The notes under the pieces are model-generated. The model made no database searches. It was not told where the DNA came from and saw only the letters and a program-made list of their open reading frames with translations. Of a DNA stretch of 64,000 nucleotides, positions 11,732 to 12,439 are shown in pieces. The DNA comes from Brevibacillus humidisoli (lineage in GTDB: Bacteria; Bacillota; Bacilli; Brevibacillales; Brevibacillaceae). The DNA is taken from NCBI RefSeq assembly GCF_020923435.1, contig NZ_CP087263.1, forward strand, positions 2,189,970 to 2,253,969, given 5' to 3'. The position numbers were made by a program, and so were the translations under genes. Within the stretch, counting starts at the first letter, position 1; the number at the start of each line of letters is the position of its first letter.

Positions 11732-11893
11732 TTATGCTGGCCTCGTCGCTGGATCATGGGTGCTGGCCTGACGCCGCTGCAGATTGCGCCGTTCGATCTC
11801 GTTGGATAACAGCTCAATAAAGGCTGGTTCAAGTTGCAGGCTGACAGCACGCTCATATACTTCCAGCAGAAGCGAATCACTTACGTATCTCAC
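11732..11893 (-). CDS. sda: sporulation histidine-kinase inhibitor Sda
   Basis: 53 residues starting at GTG (11891-11893) with AAAGGTGGTGA upstream. The N-terminal 36 residues (RYVSDSLLLEVYERAVSL, then FIELLSNEIERR) match the Sda helical hairpin (B. subtilis: LSDELLIESY...F..LIE.EI.RR). Sda blocks KinA autophosphorylation and so delays sporulation when DNA replication is initiating or blocked. The C-terminal tail is longer and more polar than in B. subtilis. The upstream region holds a cluster of DnaA boxes, as expected for the DnaA-controlled sda promoter. Confidence 0.85.
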   Translation of the reverse strand: MRYVSDSLLLEVYERAVSLQLEPAFIELLSNEIERRNLQRRQASTHDPATRPA

Positions 11894-11956
11894 GTCTGTC
11901 ACCACCTTTTTTTATGGGCATTGTAGCATGGAACACAAGGTCGAACAACCACATGG

Positions 11957-12065
11957 ATATCCACAAGGGCTGTGTAAAAGGTGTTAGCAAGGTGTGTACA
12001 ATCTGTGTACAAAAGTCTCTTTCCCTTTTCTGTCAATGTGGATTATGATCATTCACTTATCCACA
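11957..12065. promoter_or_regulatory. DnaA-box cluster upstream of sda
   Basis: Six 9-mers fit the DnaA box TTATNCACA or differ by one or two bases: ATATCCACA (11957), TTTTACACA on minus (11971-11979), TTGTACACA on minus (11993-12001 and 12004-12012), TAATCCACA on minus (12037-12045) and a perfect TTATCCACA (12057-12065). In B. subtilis DnaA binds such a cluster to switch on sda during initiation. Confidence 0.75.
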
Positions 12066-12077
12066 ACAACCCGATAA

Positions 12078-12086
12078 TTGTCGAAA
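12078..12086 (+). promoter_or_regulatory. candidate Spo0A box
   Basis: TTGTCGAAA contains the 0A-box core TGTCGAA, and lies directly next to a TATAAT hexamer at 12089-12094. It sits between sda and the small membrane gene at 12202. Confidence 0.4.
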
Positions 12087-12113
12087 GATATAATGCGGGA
12101 TGCTGCTCAAAAT

Positions 12114-12142
12114 AGAAAAATCCCCGTTGCGGGGATTTTTAG
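12114..12142 (-). terminator. bidirectional terminator hairpin
   Basis: AAAAATCCCCG / CGGGGATTTTT at 12116-12140. It lies about 60 bases downstream of the small gene stop at 12202 on the minus strand, and equally serves any rightward transcript from 12089. Confidence 0.7.
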
Positions 12143-12201
12143 CTAGTATGTCCTTCGTTCCTATCATACGAACTCGTTGTCGTCTCTGCTCTGCCCCGAC
12201 A

Positions 12202-12315
12202 TTACGTATGAACGGACAACCGGACAATCTCTGTTATGACAACCATGGTGAAGACGACGAATCCGATAGAGCTTGTAACTAGCAGCATACGCTTTAGTTT
12301 TTTACGCTCCTCCAT
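12202..12315 (-). CDS. 37-residue single-pass membrane protein
   Basis: Frame from ATG 12313-12315 with AAGGAG upstream. The peptide begins MEERKKLKRM, a basic cytosolic head, continues with one hydrophobic helix (LLVTSSIGFVVFTMVVITEI) and ends RLSVHT. No family recognised. An alternative in-frame start is at 12327, but it abuts the ribosome binding site. Confidence 0.6.
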   Translation of the reverse strand: MEERKKLKRMLLVTSSIGFVVFTMVVITEIVRLSVHT

Positions 12316-12439
12316 GTTCTTGTCCATCTCCTTCTTTTTCAAGAAATCTGTCTCTACTCTATTATACGGGATAATCGCCTAAAAGGTTACAACCAACTTG
12401 AATCTTTTGGAAAAATTTCTAGACAATGTTCGCCTTTTT

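Follow-up and report, generated by a model that had tools for sequence, protein, structure and literature searches.

The locus centres on sda, a small gene that restrains spore formation during chromosome replication; no link between replication and sporulation is better known than its product, Sda. The window, the whole stretch of 64,000 nucleotides that was analysed, corresponds to G000:C1:2189970-2253969 of a Brevibacillus-type genome of 4.91 Mb in one contig. Within it, the sda coding region occupies positions 11735-11893 on the (-) strand, with the stop codon at 11732-11734, and encodes 53 amino acids. The product was identified as Sda by a Pfam match (PF08970, 58 bits) and resembles the solved Sda structures 3d36_C (E 1.2e-7) and 1pv0_A (E 2e-6). 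Its GTG start was set by a family alignment, in which it lines up with the start codons of 38 relatives. Sda was found in all 39 of the genomes searched from the order and in 128 of the 299 genomes sampled from the class. A terminator-like hairpin (12116-12140, (-)) lies between sda and the upstream genes. Further upstream, between sda and an MFS gene, there is a membrane-type reading frame of 46 amino acids (12202-12342, (-)), for which searches of Pfam and NCBIfam returned no match; a very similar frame also occurs upstream of sda in locus L002, which makes a genuine small gene probable here.

The -10 element of sda was assigned to TACAAT (11920-11925, (-)), which is aligned in the family and is separated by a 17-bp spacer from the -35 element TTGTTC (11943-11948, (-)). 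The latter matches TTGACA at only three of six bases, and a weak -35 of this kind would fit the expectation for an activated promoter. Above this promoter, the sequence-only reading had reported six DnaA-like boxes in about 110 bp, and the recount agreed with it: six matches to TTATNCACA with at most one mismatch fall within 109 bp. They comprise a proximal anchor box, ATATCCACA (11957-11965, (+)); three array boxes, TTTTACACA (11971-11979, (-)) and TTGTACACA at both 11993-12001 and 12004-12012 (both (-)); a further inner box, TAATCCACA (12037-12045, (-)), located 80 bp from the proximal anchor; and a perfect distal anchor box, TTATCCACA (12057-12065, (+)). We added a weak seventh box, TTGCTAACA (11982-11990, (-)), which has three mismatches to TTATNCACA and occupies slot 2 of an 11-bp grid, the other array boxes holding slots 1, 3, and 4. 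The two anchors are 100 bp apart. Shuffling the window 60 times with dinucleotides preserved gave at most three boxes in 110 bp, against the six seen here, while the number of TTATNCACA matches in the window as a whole was at chance (39 versus a shuffle mean of 43.55, at most one mismatch). Across the genome, exact boxes occur in 117 places, and a TTRTNCACA pair with a 2-bp gap in three, one of which is the sda cluster. The C-terminal domain of the DnaA encoded in this genome closely matches 8btg_A (E 1.7e-35).

The arrangement was then compared across 147 sda loci from 131 genomes, a subset of all the sda genes detected, from which L003 and L005 had been left out as duplicates of the genomes of L001 and L002, respectively; families are given as groupings f1-f51, with f15 treated as Bacillus-like. 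The same plan was common to 129 of the 147 loci, 128 of the 131 genomes, and 25 of the 27 families. Two TGTGNATAA-type anchors in sense orientation enclose weak boxes that face the opposite way and follow an 11-bp grid, and a -35 element lies near the proximal anchor; for selection, an anchor pair 76-115 bp apart and at least two inner boxes with no more than two mismatches were required. The 18 loci excluded from the statistics were 14 additional Sda copies, in each case with another copy in the same genome that has the plan; L082, L117, and L133, which represent both fetched copies of G149 (f38) and the single copy of G039 (f2); and L013, in which the proximal anchor is degraded.

The distances between anchors formed discrete groups (8 loci at 80-81 bp, 62 at 89-92 bp, 54 at 99-102 bp, and 5 at 110-114 bp), and none of the 129 loci had a spacing of 82-88, 93-98, or 103-109 bp within the searched range of 76-115 bp, the pattern that gain or loss of complete helical turns would give. 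Inner boxes with no more than two mismatches started mainly at 14-16, 24-26, 35-37, and 46-49 bp from the proximal anchor (127, 120, 109, and 70, respectively), with additional groups at 69-72 bp (43) and at 78-82 bp (109, including the box at 12037 of the window); the rest were scattered. Counted by grid position at the same threshold, slots 1, 2, and 3 were filled in 122, 118, and 108 of the 129 loci, respectively, and slot 4 in 54 of them, versus 0, 0, and 1 for three off-grid control positions. The -35 element begins 17-18 bp from the start of the proximal anchor in 126 of the 129 loci, and its spacer to the -10 is 17 bp in 124, by a search that favoured this length. The boxes, their spacing, and their conservation can be read from the sequences of the loci compared. 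The region has the sequence features of the B. subtilis sda promoter, which is known to be activated by DnaA, and DnaA binding is predicted here as well. The proposal that DnaA controls sda is strengthened accordingly: the boxes accompany the gene in its relatives, and the pattern that would have spoken against it, sda retained while the boxes are not, was not encountered.

The cluster might instead serve mainly to titrate DnaA, as its seven boxes in the window and the position of its B. subtilis counterpart among eight high-affinity regions (PMC4447404) could suggest. Titration as the main role appears very improbable, however, given that the array keeps a fixed distance from the -35 of sda, that its inner boxes are weak, and that the 14 additional Sda copies have no array, so that it follows one particular gene. 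Titration is not needed to explain the cluster, and DnaA control of sda remains the preferred reading of the array.

Adjacent to the distal anchor lies a Spo0A-type box (12077-12085, (-)), which reads TTCGACAAT on the sda strand and ATTGTCGAA on the (+) strand and includes TGTCGAA at 12079-12085 (+). Its TCGACAA, just upstream of the distal anchor, is present in 39 of 39 family sequences. Over the whole set, 96 of the 129 loci, from 20 of the 25 families, carry a sense TTCGACA core with no more than one mismatch at a distance of 15-30 bp on the upstream side of the distal anchor. A core in the opposite orientation occurs in 11 loci and the reversed motif in 9, and among equal-length stretches further upstream, 60 of 1213 match. 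The longer motif TTCGACAAA was exact in 57 of the 129 loci and had at most one mismatch in 85. A few permuted motifs scored high, reaching up to 54 loci in the TTCGACAAA scan and 92 in the scan with the TTCGACA core; some of the permutations listed for the former are this same element in shifted form. Pairs of 0A boxes in tandem at a 10-bp interval are typical of Spo0A, and in 35 of the 85 loci (27 of 38 in the family of the window and 8 of 47 elsewhere) a second TTCGAC-like copy with no more than one mismatch follows at a distance of exactly 10 bp; two copies were at an offset of 12 and none at the other offsets tested. In the window, this second half is degenerate (ATCGGG, 12070-12075, (-), 10 bp on from the first; three mismatches to TTCGAC).

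The genome encodes one Spo0A, which has a standard DNA-binding domain that aligns end to end with the solved 1lq1 and is identical to it along SRVERAIRHAIEVAWSRGN. The placement of a Spo0A-type site beside the DnaA cluster, proposed from the window alone, is backed by conservation, and binding of Spo0A there is predicted. As a marker across the genome, the tandem 0A motif was rejected: with no more than two mismatches it gave 31 matches, the site of the window not among them, versus 64 for the reversed control. It is accordingly conservation, and not rarity of the motif, that carries the case for Spo0A, because the tandem motif is not enriched in the genome. No known Spo0A target was recognised in the two regions with tandem matches that were inspected (L153 and L172). 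The sense core was absent in five families, namely f4 (0 of 16), f20 (0 of 3), f27 (0 of 4), f32 (0 of 2), and f36 (0 of 7), the last of which carries a TGTCGAA-type site that is inverted and further out. The distance from the box to the anchor was nearly fixed in most families and differed between them (15-16, 18-20, or 26-30 bp), and no helical phase of the box relative to the anchor was found when it was looked for across the loci. Both observations speak against a strict protein contact.

Several observations concern Spo0A-type sites outside this promoter. Among four DnaA-box regions checked in the genome, TTCGACA was present at sda and upstream of dnaA, where a TTCGACAAG site lies between DnaA boxes (L190:365), similar to the Spo0A boxes of the B. 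subtilis oriC. The two others (L191:418-565 and L192:285-444, near 3.726 and 4.275 Mb) are clusters of six and seven DnaA boxes, respectively, with no more than one mismatch, and have no 0A boxes. In f33, the additional Sda copies L127 and L128 do not have the DnaA plan but carry two upstream sites of the TTTGTCGAA type (-168/-143 and -161/-136); to judge from these sites, they are perhaps controlled by Spo0A alone.

The 0A element might be regarded as a degenerate DnaA box, as the consensus sequences are similar, a likeness of TGTCGAA to the DnaA box has been pointed out in the literature (PMC5295017), and at these bases f29 has TTATCGACA, which differs from a DnaA box by one mismatch. This is nevertheless quite improbable, since all 39 family sequences (TCGACAA) retain the G of CGAC and the following AA, bases that lie beyond the DnaA consensus or conflict with it, and the 10-bp tandem does not match the 11-bp grid of the DnaA boxes. 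That the box serves an upstream or divergent neighbour instead of sda is likewise improbable. Loci of the Bacillus type do have a divergent yqeG-like gene upstream, and yqeG-M is listed as DnaA-regulated (PMC8203912). However, the longest upstream frame in the family of the window was co-directional in 10 of the 11 loci inspected, yet the box is present in 39 of 39 sequences; in addition, neither of the two longest frames is a divergent yqeG-like one in the box-bearing f3 loci L061, L064, and L067, and in the window the hairpin at 12116-12140 separates the upstream frame from sda. We consequently retain the reading of the element as a Spo0A-type site that belongs to sda.

A further element of the promoter region, present in most loci, is the LexA-type operator. 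Exact GAACNNNNGTTC lies over the -35 in 106 of the 129 loci, whereas it is missing (at least two mismatches) at the sda genes of all three genomes of the genus to which the window belongs (L001, L002, and L004). The upstream regions of lexA in these same three genomes retain a GAACNNNNGTTC-type box. The operator is also missing in L011 and L026 of the same family and in 18 loci elsewhere, four of them with no more than one mismatch. In nine loci from f9, f24, f35, f40, f41, and f46 (L059, L060, L063, L065, L069, L113, L116, L141, and L148), it is missing while the DnaA plan is kept, which may reflect repeated loss or other LexA motifs. The idea that the locus repeats the logic of B. subtilis thus held in part: the conserved boxes agree with control by DnaA, whereas the LexA-type operator, which belongs to the published control of B. 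subtilis sda (PMC5445613; PMC11925247), is missing in this genus. The loss of the operator can be read directly from the loci compared, and the absence of a damage response at sda is what it would predict.

Taken together, these features suggest the following mechanism. ATP-DnaA would bind the two strong same-facing anchors and then fill the weak opposite-facing boxes on the 11-bp grid; the proximal anchor, which keeps its distance to a weak -35 constant, could allow the complex to recruit RNA polymerase, so that sda would be switched on when active initiator is plentiful. Sda would then inhibit the kinases that feed Spo0A. In turn, Spo0A~P may act on the sda promoter through the box beside the distal anchor, most likely by hindering the DnaA complex and thereby lowering sda expression. 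Sda and Spo0A~P would in this way be mutually inhibitory, which could make commitment to sporulation switch-like. With the LexA operator gone in the genus, DNA damage should not derepress sda directly.

The direction of the Spo0A effect deserves separate consideration. Spo0A is predicted to bind at sda and to repress it, repression being our best guess because the site abuts the distal anchor, far from the -35, and because the binding of Spo0A~P at oriC modestly inhibits replication (PMC5295017). Spo0A~P might, on the contrary, activate sda, either directly or through a second, distal promoter, in a negative feedback that would trim or delay rises in Spo0A~P; the constant orientation of the box relative to the gene (sense in 96 loci versus antisense in 11) is compatible with this. 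We regard activation as rather unlikely, because in the window the box is at least 134 bp upstream of the -35 with the DnaA array between them, and because no conserved -10 was evident by eye just downstream of the box in the family alignment. The suggestion that a TATAAT beside the box (12089-12094) is its meaningful partner was not borne out: this hexamer is on the (+) strand, facing away from sda, forms part of no consensus promoter, and occurs near the box in only 2 of the 39 family sequences (L001 and L007), at differing offsets. A promoter at this TATAAT was therefore rejected, along with a short RNA running from it to the terminator. A promoter scan of 11850-12250 returned no promoter-like sites, and it also misses the weak -35 of sda itself.

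The joint reading, in which a DnaA-activated sda promoter is repressed by Spo0A~P through the adjoining box and has lost its LexA input in the genus, has in our judgement slightly better than even chances of being correct. Its extension to most Bacilli with this type of sda, including the relatives of B. subtilis, is advanced more tentatively: there, too, Spo0A~P might repress its own brake by disrupting an oriC-like DnaA array, giving a toggle between DnaA and Spo0A, with the LexA input dropped in some lineages such as this genus. A large role for Spo0A is opposed by the five families without the sense core and by the persistence of Spo0A pulsing in B. subtilis after deletion of sda; the degenerate second half in the window also counts against the joint reading. 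Activation by DnaA is a kind of control already known for sda, and the Spo0A input is the new part; a feedback loop through this site, as the sequence-only reading first proposed, is plausible. If Spo0A acts at the conserved site, the one-way checkpoint would become a loop, with sporulation possibly acting back on its own brake. As the 11-bp grid suggests, the sda promoter may use an oriC-like DnaA array in 25 of the 27 sampled families. Because some lineages have lost the LexA-type operator but keep the DnaA sites, the damage input would seem to be dispensable, in contrast to the replication input.

Among the known systems, the closest is the sda promoter of B. subtilis, for which DnaA binding and activation, LexA control, and the action of Sda are known from published work. 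Its sda region has eight predicted DnaA sites and was recovered about 50-fold more with ATP-DnaA than with ADP-DnaA at 55 nM (PMC4447404). The window shares with it the upstream array of DnaA boxes and the Sda protein family, and differs in the missing operator. Locus L054, in which a stretch of 44 Sda residues is identical to 1pv0, has the same plan and the 0A site; unlike the window, it also has the LexA-type operator, and its anchors are 91 bp apart instead of 100 bp. The 0A box is no part of the B. subtilis sda circuit in the portions of its descriptions available to us, and we found no description of a Spo0A site at sda in the open-licence literature, as far as its accessible text extends; the tables of the Spo0A ChIP-chip study (Molle, 2003) may include it. 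The grid itself recalls the E. coli oriC, where arrays of four low-affinity DnaA sites 2 bp apart are flanked by strong sites (PMC6727663), although the sda site is a promoter and not an origin, and the likeness is one of sequence pattern. In the B. subtilis oriC, Spo0A boxes likewise occur among DnaA boxes (PMC5295017); there the two kinds of boxes overlap, whereas at sda the DnaA boxes have the 0A box on their upstream side.
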